From: Collinsella sp. zg1085
GTDB lineage: Bacteria; Actinomycetota; Coriobacteriia; Coriobacteriales; Coriobacteriaceae
Reading direction: 5' to 3'
DNA length: 64,000 nt
NCBI RefSeq assembly: GCF_018889955.1
Contig: NZ_CP076545.1
Coordinates: 620,001 to 684,000 of the forward strand
Made by a program: the position numbers and the translations under genes. Below are positions 19,054-30,304 of this stretch, piece by piece. The first letter of the stretch is position 1; each line of letters begins with the position of its first letter. The notes under the pieces were generated by a model. The model made no database searches and was not told the origin of the DNA. It saw only the letters and a list, made by a program, of their open reading frames with translations.

Positions 19054-20103
19054 TTGGATGTATCGCTCGAGTACTTTGTACAGCAGGTGACCTCGTCACC
19101 AGTACTAGCTATTTCGGTCGCCCTTACCTTGGGCGTTATTTTTGTCAATGGGTGGACCGACGCCCCTAATGCAATTGCCACCTGTGTTACCACGCGTTGT
19201 ATGCGTGTGCGCCCTGCTATCATCATGAGCGCAATTTTTAATTTCTTAGGCGTGCTCATCATGACGCATTTCAATGCCAGTGTTGCTTCAACAATCTCAA
19301 ATATGGTTGATTTTGGTAGCGATACGCACATGGCAATTATTGCGCTCTGTGCAGCGTTGTTTTCCATTGTGGTATATAGCGTTGCTGCCGCGCGTTTGGG
19401 TATCCCCACATCTGAGAGCCATAGCCTAATCGCTGGATTAACCGGCGCTGCAATTGCGCTTGGCGGCGCTGAGGGTGTTAACATGGCTGAGTGGGCAAAA
19501 GTTGCCTATGGTCTGGTCTTGTCGCTGGTTGGCGGCTTTGTATTTGGATACGTGGTTTGCAAAGCTGTTACTCTTTTGTTTGCCTATGCTGATAGGCGAC
19601 CAGCGAATGTCTTTTTTAAGTATGCACAGATTTTTGGCGCAGCAGCTATGAGCTTCATGCACGGTGCTCAAGATGGTCAAAAGTTTATCGGCGTACTCTT
19701 TTTGGGTATGGCCTTTGCAAATGGACAGTCAAGCGTTGAGGGTATTGTCATTCCTATTTGGCTGATGATGCTTTGTTCGGTGATGATGGGTGTCGGAACT
19801 TCGGTTGGCGGCGAAAATATCATCAAGTCGGTGGGTATGGACATGGTAAAACTCGAGAAGTACCAAGGTTTTTCTGCCGATCTTTCAAGCTCGCTTTCCT
19901 TGTTTGTCATGACACTCTTGGGTATTCCTGTTTCAACAACTCATGTAAAAACGAGTGCAATTATGGGCGTTGGAGCTGTTAAACGCCTATCTGCCATCAA
20001 TTTTTCAGTGGTAAAAGATATGATGCTGACCTGGGTATTTACTTTTCCAGGCTGTGGTCTTATCAGCTTTTTAATGGCTAAGTTATTCATCATGGTTTTG
20101 TAG
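19054..20103 (+). CDS. Inorganic phosphate transporter, PiT family
   Basis: Low-affinity phosphate symporter. The 349-aa protein has about ten membrane helices and the duplicated PiT signature: GWTDAPNAIATCVTTR in the N-half and STTHVKTSAIMGVG in the C-half, plus TSESHSLIAGLTGAA. The N-half signature has Thr where many members have Asn-Asp (GANDVANA type). The TTG at 19054 is the only in-frame start after GAGAGGA (19036-19042). The DUF47 gene downstream supports the PiT call. No obvious phosphate-regulon box is visible upstream. Confidence 0.92.
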   Translation: MDVSLEYFVQQVTSSPVLAISVALTLGVIFVNGWTDAPNAIATCVTTRCMRVRPAIIMSAIFNFLGVLIMTHFNASVASTISNMVDFGSDTHMAIIALCAALFSIVVYSVAAARLGIPTSESHSLIAGLTGAAIALGGAEGVNMAEWAKVAYGLVLSLVGGFVFGYVVCKAVTLLFAYADRRPANVFFKYAQIFGAAAMSFMHGAQDGQKFIGVLFLGMAFANGQSSVEGIVIPIWLMMLCSVMMGVGTSVGGENIIKSVGMDMVKLEKYQGFSADLSSSLSLFVMTLLGIPVSTTHVKTSAIMGVGAVKRLSAINFSVVKDMMLTWVFTFPGCGLISFLMAKLFIMVL

Positions 20104-20147
20104 TGGTGGGTTTGCTGTTTTACAGTTGCCTTTAGAGAGGAATGCTC

Positions 20148-20774
20148 ATGGCAAAGAAAAAAGACGAGTTTTATTTCAATAACTTTATTGCATGTGCCGA
20201 TGTTGCTCGCCGTGCTGCGCACTTGCTTGTGGGGTGCATGGAGAATTTTGACCCAGAAAAGATTGATTTAGCACTGGCTCAGATGCATGAGATTGAGAAT
20301 GAGGGCGATGAATGCAATCACGAGATTTCTGATGCGCTGGTTTCGGCATTTATTACCCCTATGGAGCGCGAAGATATTGCCTTGCTAAGTGAGCGTCTTG
20401 ATTCGGTGACCGACCACCTTGAGGGTGTTTTGCACCGAATTTATTTTTGCAATATTCAAGAAATACGGGCAAGCGCATTGAAGATGGCACATAAAATCCT
20501 TGAAGCCTGCGATAGCATGAAGCTTTTGGTAGGGGAGCTGCCTGAGTTTAAGCGCTCGAAAAAGCTTCGTGAGCAGGTTGTGACCATCAATACCATTGAG
20601 GGTCAGTGTGACGAGTTGTATATTGAGTCGATGCGTGAGTTGCATACCGACATGAGCTTAGACCCTCTGACCGTCATCGCATGGCGCGATGTGTACACCT
20701 TCCTTGAGATTACAGCCGACAGCGTAGAAGATGTTGCTGAGACGGTTGAAAATGTGGTGATGAAAAACAGCTAA
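20148..20774 (+). CDS. DUF47 / PhoU-like accessory protein of PiT transporter
   Basis: Alpha-helical protein of 208 aa of the DUF47 family (distant PhoU relatives), encoded directly after PiT genes in many bacteria and thought to modulate them. Visible family features are DEFYFNNFIACADVARRAA at the start, the acidic MHEIENEGDECNHEISDAL, and PMEREDIALLSERLDSVTDHLEGV. ATG at 20148 fits the GAGAGG site better than the ATG at 20142. No strong terminator follows; a weak CGCCT/AGGCG hairpin lies at about 20779-20801. Confidence 0.9.
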   Translation: MAKKKDEFYFNNFIACADVARRAAHLLVGCMENFDPEKIDLALAQMHEIENEGDECNHEISDALVSAFITPMEREDIALLSERLDSVTDHLEGVLHRIYFCNIQEIRASALKMAHKILEACDSMKLLVGELPEFKRSKKLREQVVTINTIEGQCDELYIESMRELHTDMSLDPLTVIAWRDVYTFLEITADSVEDVAETVENVVMKNS

Positions 20775-20839
20775 TACGCGCCTGCTTGTTTCCTGTAGGC
20801 GGGGTGTGGGGTGAGCTAGTCTTGCATTTGCCGATTGAT

Positions 20840-21411
20840 TCGCAAACCTATGGGGTGGCATAGTCTTTTCGCTTAATCAATTGGGCAAATAGCTCGCAAG
20901 CTTATGGGGTGGCATAGTCTTTTCACGGGAACTGCGCTTCGCGAAAGTTCCCTTAGAAAAGCTATGCCACCCTTTTGCTGTAGTTCTATCTCAATTGAAC
21001 GAATGATTGTGTTCTACGAATGTGTTTCGCAGAATTCTCCGAGCACAATCATTCGTTCTCTTCTAAAGGTAAATGCCAAATGATATACAGCGGTCAGCCT
21101 GCCCCACACTTCGTCATGCACAAGCAGGGCGTATGGGACGAAAAGGGTTAGTTGTAACTCTTACACAACTAGAGAGAAGTCCCACTTCAAGGGCTTTTCT
21201 GCCCGATAGACTTCCTTGAAACGTGTAATCCGCAAAACTGCTTGCTTTTCAAGTCTAAATCGACCAAGGTATTGCATTCTCCGAATGTGCTTCGCAGAAT
21301 TCTCCGAATACAATACCTTGGTCTTACGTCTGCCTTTCGTGCTGGAGGCAAACGAACATTCCAATAAAGCTGTGTCCCGCGAACACTTTTCTGAAAAAGC
21401 AGCTTGTTTTT
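20840..21411. other. Gene-free array of nested hairpins, candidate structured RNA or palindromic repeat cluster
   Basis: No plausible gene, but dense inverted repeats. A 31-bp direct repeat with two mismatches lies at 20840-20870 and 20894-20924. Hairpin A (20907-20972) has GGGTGGCATAG and GGGAACT arms. Hairpin B (20997-21011 with 21044-21058) has a perfect 15-bp stem. Hairpin D is nested, TGGGAC/GTCCCA around TAGTTGT/ACAACTA (21134-21184). TAGACTT/AAGTCTA lies at 21207-21257. Hairpin C (21262-21274 with 21311-21323) has a perfect 13-bp stem. A possible three-way junction at 21367-21405 is followed by five T. B and C have unrelated arms but nearly identical 32-base loops. Confidence 0.6.
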
Positions 21412-21457
21412 CTCCTGCACAGACAGATTTCAAAACACCGCTAACTTGTATAAGCTG

Positions 21458-21623
21458 TTTTGACAGAAATGGGCAATTTGGCACTAAATTCTGACAAAAA
21501 GGGCCAATGTGGCAATAAACCCCCTGTAGCATGAAAAACTGCACCTCATCTACCTGCAGGTTTAGAAAATAACGAATAACCCTCGGGTGTTATTTACTGC
21601 CAAATTGCCCGTTTCTGTCAAAA
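21458..21623. repeat. Inverted-repeat-bounded element, copy 1 (about 166 bp)
   Basis: Bounded by 26-bp inverted repeats (21458-21483 and 21598-21623) with one mismatch. The left arm is repeated once in tandem with a 31-base period. Inside are CTCATCTACCTGCAG at 21545-21559 and a small AATAAC...GTTATT hairpin at 21575-21594. A diverged copy with the same layout lies at 30027-30189. No coding capacity. It may be a MITE-like repeat or a structured non-coding element. Confidence 0.65.
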
Positions 21624-22692
21624 AGGGTTGGACTACCATTGCCTTCAAACTCGAAGACTAGGGTAGAGAACTAAAGCGAAGCACTGAGTGCGCGTGATGA
21701 GATTCCCTCCTCGATAAACGTGCACACTTAACGCCTTGCCAAAGCATGCAATAAATGGGTATGCGGTACGTTCTTAGGTAGTATTCGAGAGTCCTAAGCT
21801 GGTACGTTACGCCTTGGAGGATAAGTTCATGTTATTCGTAGCTAATTAACAAGAGATGACGTGTTTGTTTCGTGTTTAGCATTACGAAAAGCTGAGATTG
21901 AAGGTAAACAACACCAAGCTCCGGCTCAGGGCGCATGTACTTGCTTGCGTCATGCGGGAAAGAATAACACTGCGTGGGTGGTAAGCTAAATGTATCTCGG
22001 TAATAATGGGCAGTTGCATCTTGTAGGGAGATTGTTGTTTGTAGGTCTTTGGCTAAAGGATGGCTCCAGATACGCTTTAGCCTGTTAATAATAAACATAC
22101 AGAGCAACTGTTTCGCTAGATAAGCTACGAAAAGTGTATATTGTTTAATATAAGTTAACGAAGCTATATCGAAGTAGAGCAGATGAGGAACTATCTTGCG
22201 CATGTTGGCACTCGTGGCAGCATGATGATTTTGCAGGGTGGAGCGTTTGCAACTGCAAGAGGCCATACTAGATGCTTGTGATACAAGAACAACAATCCAA
22301 TAAAAATGAGTGCTTTAGAATCCTCTTCTAAGCACATGAGTAAGTATTATAAAGAATAATACTTATAAAATTTAATACTATAAAATTTTAAGAAAAGAGA
22401 GAACTGCATAATATTATGTATAATTTGAATATAATAACCTAGGAGTTGTATTTTGAACTATGAGGGGGATTATTATCATCCAAGAAAATAGAGCAGATAT
22501 TACCAGTAGTAATATAAGAAAACCTCTCAACTAGACCTAATATCGACCCAGAATCTTGCTTAAACGTGAATAGGTAGATGCATTCTAGTTATGTATTTTT
22601 TAGAGTATTAGTTCTTGAATATTTTATGAGCTTTTCAAGCTTTAATACCATATAGTTTAATTTTATTTTCGTTTATAACTTAAGGAGCATAG
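21624..22692. other. AT-rich intergenic region without a supported gene
   Basis: The part from about 22260 is strongly AT-rich compared with the rest of the window. An open frame of 144 codons on the minus strand (21832-22266) has no ribosome site and no family I recognise; it could be a decayed gene. GGAGG followed by ATG near 21829 opens a frame of only a few codons. The last 100 bases presumably carry the promoter of the surface-protein gene, but I could not fix -35/-10 boxes. Low G+C next to a surface protein suggests acquired DNA. Confidence 0.4.
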
Positions 22693-24846
22693 ATGAACGA
22701 CGATACATATATTTCAAAACATATATTCAAAAAGCTTGCGTACATCGTCCTTGCATTTGCCGTATGCGTGGCAGTCATACCGGTAGGCGTGCTGTCAAGC
22801 TTTGGTCTTAATGCAGCGCTGTCCCAGCGGTCTGCTACAGGTCAATCGCAGACAAGCTCTAAGCCACTTCCTCAGGATAATGTCGTTGATGCTGCTACGG
22901 CACAGGCTGCGGGCTTTGCGGCTCAGCCGGTACACGCGAACCCCGATTCTCGCTATCTTGTGCACAATCAGTTCTTTGCAGAGGGAGACGCAGCTCAGCT
23001 TTCTGAAACAAATCCCATGCTCAAGACAGATACGCTTCCTGGCTGGGAGATTGTTCCGAGTGCCACGAATGATAGCGAAGTCGTACTGTTTTATGACGTG
23101 CTTACAGCCAAGGATGCAAGGACTGTGTCTGGCGGTCTTGTGAGTGGTAGTGTACGTTTGGGCGGCTTTTACGATCAGCATGCAAACGGTCGCGACCTTC
23201 CGTGGCTTACCGCCTATGTAAAGTCTGCAGGGGCGCGCCCCGGTTGGGGACAGATGGTTCCTTCTAAAGACGTACGCTTGCTGTACCTTAAGGCGGGTCA
23301 GGGTATTTCTCAGGCCTGTGATGTTGTACCTGGTCAGCATTTTGCGGTTGAAACCATCGCTATCAGCTCTAACGCAGCAGGCCCCAATGGTATCAGAATA
23401 AGATTCTATGATGCAGATACGGGACATGAACTTACCAACTATGGTGCAGGAAGCAATAATCAGGCGCGCAGCTATCCCACAAGTTGGGGTGCGGTGTCAT
23501 CGCGAGTTGAGGCGGTTCCACAAGCTATCAAGCGTATTCGCTACGTTATTACAAGTGAGGGAGTAGCAACGCTCATCGGACCGGTTGACGTGCGGGGCGG
23601 GGCGCAGCTATGTGTTTACAAAGATATTGTTGAGGCAGAGCGCATTGATAGCACGGCTTTGAGCCATAACAACGACGCAGCCTATGATGGCGGTAAAGAG
23701 CTTCGCCAAGACGGTGTCGTGACAGTTGCTCTGGTAGTGCAAAATGAAGGACAAGGTATTACCAGAGGTGACATCACGGTAAAAGATAGTATTCCCGAGG
23801 GTTTTGCATATGTTTCAGACTCGGTGCGTGTGTATGCAGCCAATGGTAAGGATATTACTGACAAAGTGATAGGTCCAAAGCGCCATGCTTCGGGAAAGAT
23901 TAAATCAGAATATATCAAGGTTGACTACGACGATTTCTTTTCCATAACAGGCTCTGATATACGTATCAAACCTGCGGCTAAAGGAGGTCATTCAGGCGTA
24001 TATCCCATGCGAAGTTTCCAAGGGCCATTTTATGGTATGGGCTTTCAGGGTTTCGACTCGTATCGAAATGAAAAAGACGGTGTAGGTATTGGAACCAATC
24101 CTGCATCCTCGCTCAAAGTTACTTATAAGCTTAAGGCAGTGGCTACACGTGAGACAATAGGTAGTGACAAGCAAGGTAAACCTCGCGACCTTTGTTCAGC
24201 GTTTACACAGCCCTCGGTGAGTTTTGTGAATCTCTGGGAGGGCGTTGCTGCCACCCGAACAAACTATGGTCCCGTGGTACGTATGTCGGTGGGAACCAAC
24301 TCGGTTCCTGAGTTAACACTTAAGCAGACATCGGCAACTATTCACACGGGTGATCCGCATGCACGCGAACAGCTCCAAGCACTTGCTGCTCAAGAGAATG
24401 TAGTGACACGTGACTATGAGGACGATATTCGCTCATATAATACCCAGCGTGAGCTCATTCAGGTAACAAAAGACGGTATAGAGCTTAGTTACAATCCTGT
24501 TGACTTATCGTCGCTGCTTATGCAGGCAGGAACCTATGAGCTTAGATATAGGGCTTGCGATGCAGATGGTAATTTCTCAAATATCGAACGCGCTACGCTT
24601 ACGGTTGTGAGAGACATTGCTCCTGAACCTCCTCATGACCCAAGCAGCCCGACAACTGACCCTAAGCGACAAATGAACGATATAGCTTCTAAGCAGATAA
24701 ATCATAAGCTTATGCCGAAGCGAGTTAAGCAGACTATCCTGCCAAAGACAGGTGATGTAGGGGTAATAGCTGCTGTGGGTGCTGTTTTTGCTGCTGGCTG
24801 TGTTCTTATGGGTGCAGATATGCGGTGGAAGAATAAGAGTAGATAG
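22693..24846 (+). CDS. LPXTG-anchored surface protein with DUF11-like domain
   Basis: Predicted cell-wall-anchored adhesin-type protein, 717 aa. It has an N-terminal signal peptide (Lys-rich start, then KLAYIVLAFAVCVAVIPVGV) and a large extracellular body. A segment around 330-390 resembles DUF11-type repeat domains (VTVALVVQNEGQG, VKDSIPEGFAYVSDSVRVY). The end is a sortase signal LPKTG (683-687), a hydrophobic helix and a basic tail. The ATG follows AAGGAG. No sortase or pilin gene is next to it. The ligand is unknown; the body is not one I recognise beyond the repeat-like segment. Confidence 0.85.
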   Translation: MNDDTYISKHIFKKLAYIVLAFAVCVAVIPVGVLSSFGLNAALSQRSATGQSQTSSKPLPQDNVVDAATAQAAGFAAQPVHANPDSRYLVHNQFFAEGDAAQLSETNPMLKTDTLPGWEIVPSATNDSEVVLFYDVLTAKDARTVSGGLVSGSVRLGGFYDQHANGRDLPWLTAYVKSAGARPGWGQMVPSKDVRLLYLKAGQGISQACDVVPGQHFAVETIAISSNAAGPNGIRIRFYDADTGHELTNYGAGSNNQARSYPTSWGAVSSRVEAVPQAIKRIRYVITSEGVATLIGPVDVRGGAQLCVYKDIVEAERIDSTALSHNNDAAYDGGKELRQDGVVTVALVVQNEGQGITRGDITVKDSIPEGFAYVSDSVRVYAANGKDITDKVIGPKRHASGKIKSEYIKVDYDDFFSITGSDIRIKPAAKGGHSGVYPMRSFQGPFYGMGFQGFDSYRNEKDGVGIGTNPASSLKVTYKLKAVATRETIGSDKQGKPRDLCSAFTQPSVSFVNLWEGVAATRTNYGPVVRMSVGTNSVPELTLKQTSATIHTGDPHAREQLQALAAQENVVTRDYEDDIRSYNTQRELIQVTKDGIELSYNPVDLSSLLMQAGTYELRYRACDADGNFSNIERATLTVVRDIAPEPPHDPSSPTTDPKRQMNDIASKQINHKLMPKRVKQTILPKTGDVGVIAAVGAVFAAGCVLMGADMRWKNKSR

Positions 24847-29909: not shown

Positions 29910-30026
29910 GTTGCGCTTTTTGGTGAGATGCGCGGCTTATGCCTTGTATAAGGACTTATAGGCTTATGGGGTAAAACCCTTGTTAGCCGACGGGCTTTTC
30001 CGCACAACAACGCCTCTGTCCTGCGG

Positions 30027-30189
30027 TTTGGCAAAAATGACTAATTTGACGCAAAAAACTGTCATTTTTGACTAATTTGGCATAAAGTGACAGCTGTTAT
30101 TTTACTTGCAACTCATCTACCTGCAGCTTTGTAATTCAAAAATAAACCCGCTGGGTTATATAGAGTGCAAATTCGTCAGTTTTGCCAAA
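30027..30189. repeat. Inverted-repeat-bounded element, copy 2 (about 163 bp)
   Basis: Same layout as the element at 21458-21623. Terminal inverted repeats lie at 30027-30048 and 30168-30189 (20 of 22 positions pair), with a second arm-like unit about 32 bases on. CTCATCTACCTGCAG is conserved at 30112-30126, almost the same internal offset as in copy 1 (85 versus 87), followed by an AT-rich AAACCC/GGGTT hairpin. At four arm positions the two copies differ but remain paired. Confidence 0.65.
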
Positions 30190-30304
30190 GCGACAGCTGT
30201 AGTTTATCGGGGGAGAGAGTGCTGCCGGTGTATATCGCACATCATATGGTTGGCAACGCTCTTGTACTTTGACCATGAATTGATTACAGACATGGTTAAG
30301 GCGC

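Follow-up and report, generated by a model that had tools for sequence, protein, structure and literature searches.

The window, a stretch of 64,000 nt from Collinsella sp. zg1085 (contig NZ_CP076545.1, positions 620,001 to 684,000), contains a 572-nt block of hairpins at 20840-21411. The gene upstream of the block encodes a DUF47/PhoU-like protein and stands next to what we take to be a phosphate-permease-like gene at 19054-20103. The block lies within the left half of a composite repeat, and the repeat's outer arm E begins at 20774, on the final base of the upstream gene's stop codon. The following features were identified (the covariance models R1 and R2 are described below).

20142..20774, + strand: upstream gene, DUF47/PhoU-like protein (Pfam match, PF01865)
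20774..21646, + strand: window copy of the composite repeat, left half (hairpin module X and module y0); 78% identity over 913 columns to the reference copy G000:C1:160344-162420
20774..20818, + strand: E, outer arm of an inverted repeat of about 45 bp, placed by the copy edges
20840..20906, + strand: degenerate direct repeat of about 54 nt with an extra left arm of hairpin A; 94% identity at a spacing of 54
20907..20972, + strand: hairpin A, conserved tip and AC/TTA interior loop; 97.3% identity in 17 copies, matched by R2
20997..21058, + strand: hairpin B, conserved tip and 3x3 interior loop; 87.6% identity, part of model R1
21092..21134, - strand: E', inner inverted copy of E, placed by sequence and by RNAalifold, which pairs columns 35-45 with 554-564
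21135..21183, + strand: hairpin D; outer 5 pairs and inner 7 pairs scored across copies
21207..21257, + strand: TAGACTT/AAGTCTA inverted repeat; kept in 0 of 16 other copies
21262..21323, + strand: hairpin C, tip as in B on a different stem; 91.4% identity, matched by R2
21367..21411, + strand: terminator-like hairpin AAGCTG/CAGCTT followed by TTTTT; kept in 2 of 16 other copies
21458..21623, + strand: module y0, repeat of about 170 bp with 32-bp terminal inverted repeats, found by repeat searches; solo copies elsewhere
30009..30207, + strand: solo copy of module y1 of the composite repeat; 82% identity to reference positions of about 893-1094

All six inverted repeats reported for 20840-21411 by the first-pass annotation were found where it had placed them, and the block does fold beyond chance, as it had claimed. 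The minimum free energy was -201.7 kcal/mol on the + strand and -207.6 kcal/mol on the - strand (z -8.15 and -8.50, respectively), and none of 100 dinucleotide shuffles folded as low on either strand. Hairpins A and B are enclosed between E and E'; the arms of the last hairpin span 21367-21405, with the TTTTT behind them. ORFs of 59, 92, 77 and 127 aa traverse the hairpins, and the assignment of the block as non-coding rests on ORF length, overlap and repetitive context. Promoter-like sites in the block numbered 4, compared with 4.3 in shuffled sequences, and a simple terminator scan of the + strand gave 2 sites against 2.0 expected, the hairpin at 21367-21411 not being among them.

The search against Rfam that had been suggested for this block revealed six tRNAs elsewhere in the 64-kb window and nothing on the hairpins at gathering score. 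At E values up to 10, the best match in 20774-21700 was to a microRNA family (E 0.1), and no convincing match was detected. A known Rfam RNA was rejected, as no family besides tRNA reached gathering score in the window and at 20 loci of the related hairpins described below. Further downstream, at 22693-24846, the window encodes a surface-type protein of 717 aa without a Pfam match at E 0.001, which presumably ends in an LPKTGD-like sorting signal.

A composite repeat at 23 loci of the genome

A search with the 572 nt against its own genome (one contig, 1.72 Mb) revealed 86 matches on both strands, several of them near full length with 69-78% identity. The full unit is a composite of about 2.1 kb, represented by the reference copy, with the fixed order E-A-B-E'-C, y0, y1, z and an inverted E-A-B-E'-C; beyond 21646, the next match to the reference copy in the window lies only at 30009. 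Altogether 28 A and 44 B/C hairpins were counted in the genome. They group into 23 clusters, six of which have both halves, and one of these six copies is interrupted by a 197-aa hexapeptide-repeat ORF. The composite repeat makes up 34.2 kb of the 351 kb of own-genome sequence examined, and modules y0, y1 and z also occur solo. Independent scattering of each hairpin, which the first-pass annotation had named as evidence against a single RNA, was found for hairpin A, nearly alone at one locus (1598869), whereas the other 22 loci carry the set in fixed order.

A covariance model of hairpins B and C (R1) detected 44 hairpins of at least 59 bits in the genome, besides a few with lower scores; the 42 other genus genomes gave no match. 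DNA searches revealed nothing in 38 relatives, 23 of them congeners.

We scored E in 26 hits; 19 passed the threshold of 9 mismatches, and all of these were outer ends. For 12 of these ends a same-strand stop codon is found within -3 to +9 nt, compared with 0.97% of random positions. Of the other seven, which are directed at a gene's 5' side, two lie 7-16 nt from the start of a gene reading away and four at 59-138 nt; around the seventh, the nearest 400 nt contain no called gene. Orthologues of the DUF47 gene were present in all 42 genus genomes, and the composite was found at none of 23 congener loci corresponding to its site in the window. At 10 of these 23 sites its place is taken by a single long, perfect hairpin whose constant tip is a different one. 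This second tip type gave 19 matches in 18 of the 42 genomes, all at the DUF47 site and with a tandem pair in one genome; as a single orthologous site it was rejected as a dispersed family. The hairpins 3' of the congener DUF47 genes (L217-L227) are very long and perfect, with minimum free energies down to -111.7 kcal/mol for 130 nt; most share the second tip TCACTCCGGCTGC-N-GCAGAGTCG on stems that vary by species.

Conservation within the composite is uneven. The mean pairwise identity over 17 aligned copies was 97.3% for A, 87.6% for B and 91.4% for C, compared with 78-79% for E and E' and 61.7-72.0% for the spacers. Counting an arm as kept when all but at most one arm pair were retained, the arms of A were kept in 16, of B in 9 and of C in 14 of the other 16 copies. 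For D this was true of the outer 5 pairs in 11/16 and of the inner 7 pairs in 4/16, for TAGACTT in 0/16 and for AAGCTG/CAGCTT in 2/16. Hairpins A, B, C and partly D are therefore common to the copies, and the TAGACTT/AAGTCTA and AAGCTG/CAGCTT hairpins are peculiar to the window copy.

Covariation in the aligned copies, for which the first-pass annotation had asked, gave no support for one RNA fold: the covariation term of the consensus fold of 17 copies was slightly unfavourable (+0.72), and both-side changes occurred at 6 of 74 pairs. When B and C were pooled, both-side differences were found at 10 of 18 stem pairs, mostly reflecting one B-versus-C split; the number of double-changed pairs was not above that in shuffles (109 of 500 reached 10), whereas the number of cells was. 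The stems scarcely covary within this genome, so what maintains its palindromes is conservation of the sequence or homogenisation. Mismatches on the sense strand were more often A.C than G.T, both in B (30 to 14) and in C (23 to 10; 53 to 24 pooled). This excess leans towards the complementary strand, but in the f5 hairpins described below the numbers are 16 to 11, and a mutational bias could do likewise.

Several copies show rearranged hairpins. At four loci (G000:C1 260250, 1275511, 1297448 and 1649040) the left arm of B is fused to the right arm of C, with the junction within the shared tip, which shows recombination at the tip. Among the A hairpins at G000:C1 1598869-1598934 and 1275624-1275689, one has a left arm that is the complement of its right arm and the other is inverted relative to its neighbours; both may be signs of arm-to-arm correction or inversion within the hairpin. 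Between E and A (alignment A1, columns 55-262) the number of direct repeats of about 54 nt varies among copies, each carrying a degenerate left arm of A. Modules y0 (21458-21623) and y1 (30009-30207) are repeats of 170-190 bp with terminal inverted repeats, present solo at many places of the genome, and y0 has a subterminal 31-nt direct repeat; both look like non-autonomous mobile elements.

Hairpins with the same tip in the order

An order-wide hairpin family stands behind the repeat, which the first-pass annotation had not foreseen. When the order was searched with R1, three genomes belonging to another family (f5) gave weak matches, and a DNA search of 346 other genomes of the order detected only short matches to the tip of A, in 10 genomes of genus g13. 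Both sets of matches are long stems unrelated to those of A, B and C that carry the same tip, with the consensus G-YGC-TNC-GCR-RA. The exact pattern AAGTGYGCTNCGCRGAACTT was found in 25 of 140 f5 genomes (23 of the 31 genomes of g13 and two of genus g65) with 96 matches in all, and its reversal gave no match in the 140 genomes. Genomes with any exact 20-mer have between 1 and 14 of them.

Thirty f5 hairpins, one or two per genome, were aligned. Compensatory changes were found at 19 of 25 pairs, including all 15 pairs of the outer stem, and the number of both-side cells was 127, compared with 39.9 in shuffled alignments, a value that none of 500 shuffles reached. As the inner pairs are fixed by the search pattern, the outer stem is the real test of covariation. 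Three of the 30 hairpins (L118, L122 and L123) have the AC/TTA loop of hairpin A, and most others have the TNC/TNC loop of B and C. As the f5 set holds both loop types, A and B/C appear to represent two variants of a single hairpin family.

A second covariance model (R2), built from these 30 hairpins without any sequence of the own genome, matched A (49.1 bits, E 1e-10) and C (35.5 bits, E 5e-7), which establishes their homology with the f5 hairpins; these were its only matches in the 64-kb window at E values up to 1, and hairpin B was not detected at this threshold. In 380 kb of one genome (G081), R2 gave 11 matches, corresponding to 6 places. With an E value limit of 0.001, 66 of the order's 347 genomes had matches; they belong to 8 of 116 genera and include 18 further species of the own genus. 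Hits outside g13 might simply be long hairpins: when 27 of them, from 12 genomes, were checked, 19 had the exact tip on one strand and eight did not, so that 66 of 347 is an upper bound for the strict family.

The tip pattern of B and C gave four single matches in GTDB contigs of unrelated taxa, about as many as the 3.7 estimated for a random 18-letter match; R2 scored two of these loci at 17.2 and 15.6 bits (E 0.083 and 0.24) and gave nothing at the other two. Searches of plasmids, phages and viral contigs revealed no match to the window DNA or to this pattern, and an origin from any of these was rejected. Searches of the open-access literature, by word match and without the organism name, did not retrieve any paper devoted to the hairpin family. 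At L196-L198 (genomes G039, G018 and G042), long hairpins with the tip GAAGTGGGCTTCGCGAACTTC occur in inverted pairs, separated by about 190 nt. Their neighbours are presumably a phosphoketolase-like gene and a gene for a 312-aa membrane-transporter-like protein.

From 60 f5 loci, after removal of two without the exact tip and 13 duplicates, 45 distinct hairpins were obtained, all among the best-scoring or pattern-selected ones. In 40 of these 45 a same-strand stop codon precedes the tip, at 41-63 nt in 39 and at 92 nt in one; of the other five, two have only an antisense gene end and three neither. Single cases may be wrong, because the genes were called by GC3 and not taken from an annotation. 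Among the 10 nt that follow the stem, T accounts for 34%, compared with 16% before the stem, in the 27 of 30 aligned hairpins whose stem is clear; in the own genome, T after the stem amounts to 50% for B, 40% for C and 44% for A. The f5 hairpins thus show one feature of intrinsic terminators, a stable hairpin with a T-rich tract in sense direction behind a gene. The genes upstream of 20 f5 hairpins are diverse and many are of housekeeping type, among them genes for ribosomal proteins L24 and S10, pyruvate kinase, IMPDH, a chaperonin, PNPase, a class I tRNA ligase and several ABC transporters. A regulon was rejected, as the 20 genes have no common function.

Interpretation of the repeat and its hairpins

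The block is most probably, with a probability of about 0.55, half of a composite non-coding dispersed repeat that contains constant-tip, free-stem hairpins of the 3'-end (terminator-like) type. A, B and C would be the working parts of this repeat. They would belong to a hairpin family of the order in which the tip is fixed, the stem need only pair, and an interior loop, either AC/TTA or TNC/TNC, lies a few pairs beneath the tip. The single f5 hairpins, which stand in sense direction behind a stop codon with a T-rich tail, would form message 3' ends in the manner of intrinsic terminators. The 3'-end reading follows from this direction, the fixed distance, the T-rich tail and the covarying stems; we infer from them that the hairpin is transcribed and acts as RNA, as a transcript-ending or 3'-end-protecting structure. 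The ancestral set E-A-B-E'-C may have been duplicated together with its neighbours y0, y1 and z and spread behind genes. Half-copies that point inward from both flanking genes would give each gene several hairpins in a row, and a partner would probably read the tip.

Some observations speak against the 3'-end reading. The stems scarcely covary in the own genome, the A.C excess fits the other strand better, and the + strand terminator scan stayed at chance level. Hairpins A, B and C of the window lie more than 100 nt after the stop codon at 20774, outside the 41-63 nt seen in f5, although the module as a whole adjoins the stop codon. R2 misses B, 7 of 19 outer ends are directed at a gene's 5' side, and two of three hairpins of the congener G039 are antisense relative to the neighbouring genes; moreover, the 45 f5 hairpins are a selected set with GC3-based gene calls. 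The constant tip is not explained by a terminator role; it may reflect a factor that reads the tip in RNA or a role of the complementary strand as DNA. We propose tentatively, and with more doubt than confidence, that the hairpins are a new 3'-end signal of the order, with fixed tip, fixed stop distance and free stem, at which a dedicated factor ends, trims or protects messages, and which in one species has been multiplied into 2-kb composites behind genes.

The first-pass annotation had also suggested a cluster of palindromic mobile repeats. Its repeated and palindromic nature is borne out by the 23 loci, so the repeat reading is supported; mobility is another matter. The composite could be a nest of non-autonomous mobile elements, in which E and E' would be MITE-like termini around A and B, y0, y1 and z further units, the palindromes ends or transposase sites, and the tip the recognition site of the mobilising enzyme; the abutment on stop codons would then be a target preference for gene ends. 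The inverted repeats of 45 bp (E/E') and 32 bp (y0), the solo copies of y0, y1 and z, the position of copies on both strands at 23 loci, and the absence of the composite from 42 congeners and from the orthologous site in 23 congener loci are consistent with this. However, inspection of the complete copies by eye revealed no target duplication, and a search for Y1_Tnp (PF01797), the one transposase family searched, gave no match in the own genome (as a control, 5 of 14 known genomes were positive). Spacers of 62-72% identity beside hairpins of 88-97% are not what neutral decay of dead elements would yield, nothing related was found in plasmids, phages and viral contigs, and the f5 hairpins are single with locus-specific stems. 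We therefore regard this explanation as unlikely, if the nearest competitor of the 3'-end hairpin reading.

Less probable still is an element acting at the DNA level, in which the antisense strand would form a mini-hairpin of the d(GCGNAGC) type with a GNA loop, read in single-stranded or cruciform DNA during replication, recombination or nucleoid binding. At the unpaired middle position of the tip all four bases occur in the 42 B/C positions, and the T and C next to it are almost fixed. The complement is thus GNA in a GC stem with N free, and d(GC-GNA-GC) is described in one paper as an extraordinarily stable DNA mini-hairpin (PMC4686876). The higher number of A.C than G.T mismatches on the sense strand of B and C and the four B/C fusions at the tip also agree with a DNA element. 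The sense direction of 40 of 45 f5 hairpins and their fixed stop distance are hard to explain without a message. A single large, structured non-coding RNA, about 0.5-0.6 kb long and equipped with a promoter and a terminator of its own, has the strong folding energy in its favour and corresponds to one of the two readings offered by the first-pass annotation; it can be set aside as very improbable, since the block is half of a dispersed repeat with spacers of 62-72% identity, no covariation was found over 17 copies, three of six hairpins including the terminal one are wholly or partly lost in other copies, promoter-like sites are at shuffled level and Rfam gave no match at gathering score.

As tip and interior loop are kept across several genera while the stem pairs covary (19 of 25), something probably reads the tip. 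The composite repeat illustrates how such a signal can multiply to form a large intergenic block that appears to be selfish or insulating. The set of hairpins with constant tip and free stem offers a clean sample for deciding between RNA and DNA hairpin as the working form.

Comparison with known systems

REP and BIME elements are palindromes outside genes, frequently close to gene ends, that are arranged in ordered mosaics with alternating direction; roles in termination and mRNA stability have been proposed for them (PMC3733652, PMC2817692, PMC12306157). The composite resembles them, as its palindromes are also extragenic, ordered, alternating in direction and near gene ends. In REP sequences a GTAG or CGTC tag stands at the foot of the palindrome (as described in PMC3733652). 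REP palindromes have 20-40 bp, whereas the hairpins of the composite have 62-66 nt, a constant tip and interior loops. Their number is 28 A and 44 B/C hairpins, compared with more than 100 REP units, and they are parts of a 2-kb unit. A REP/RAYT system was rejected, as no Y1 transposase (Y1_Tnp) matched in the genome.

The hairpins share with intrinsic terminators the position near behind a stop codon, the T-rich tail and the occurrence in clusters. Terminators are taken as generic, in that any GC-rich stem with a T tail suffices, and ordinary terminators are not known to share a tip sequence; here, in contrast, tip and interior loop are common to unrelated genes and species. Hairpin clusters behind stop codons have been described as termination units in PMC8355165, which reports that the sequences close to the stop codon and surrounding the hairpins showed no conservation.

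DNA uptake signals of Neisseria and Pasteurellaceae form terminator stems and number about 1000 or more per genome, according to the passage on them in PMC1852404. The likeness lies in one short conserved sequence that recurs in the terminators of many genes. The hairpins described here differ in their constant tip and in their number, about 6 places in 380 kb of G081, and an uptake signal was rejected because this copy number, with 1-14 20-mers per genome, is too low. The g13 tip AAGTGCGCT is one letter off the Pasteurellaceae uptake signal AAGTGCGGT as quoted in PMC1852404, probably by chance.

The composite further resembles MITEs, as it is non-coding, dispersed and nested and has terminal inverted repeats (about 45 bp in E/E', 32 bp in y0). 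It differs from them in that its hairpins are far better kept than the rest and homologous single hairpins with unrelated stems exist in other genera; target duplications were not recognised by eye at the copy edges inspected. The best reading is a hairpin family of terminator-like type with constant tip and free stem, multiplied in this genome within a composite repeat whose architecture is BIME/MITE-like.
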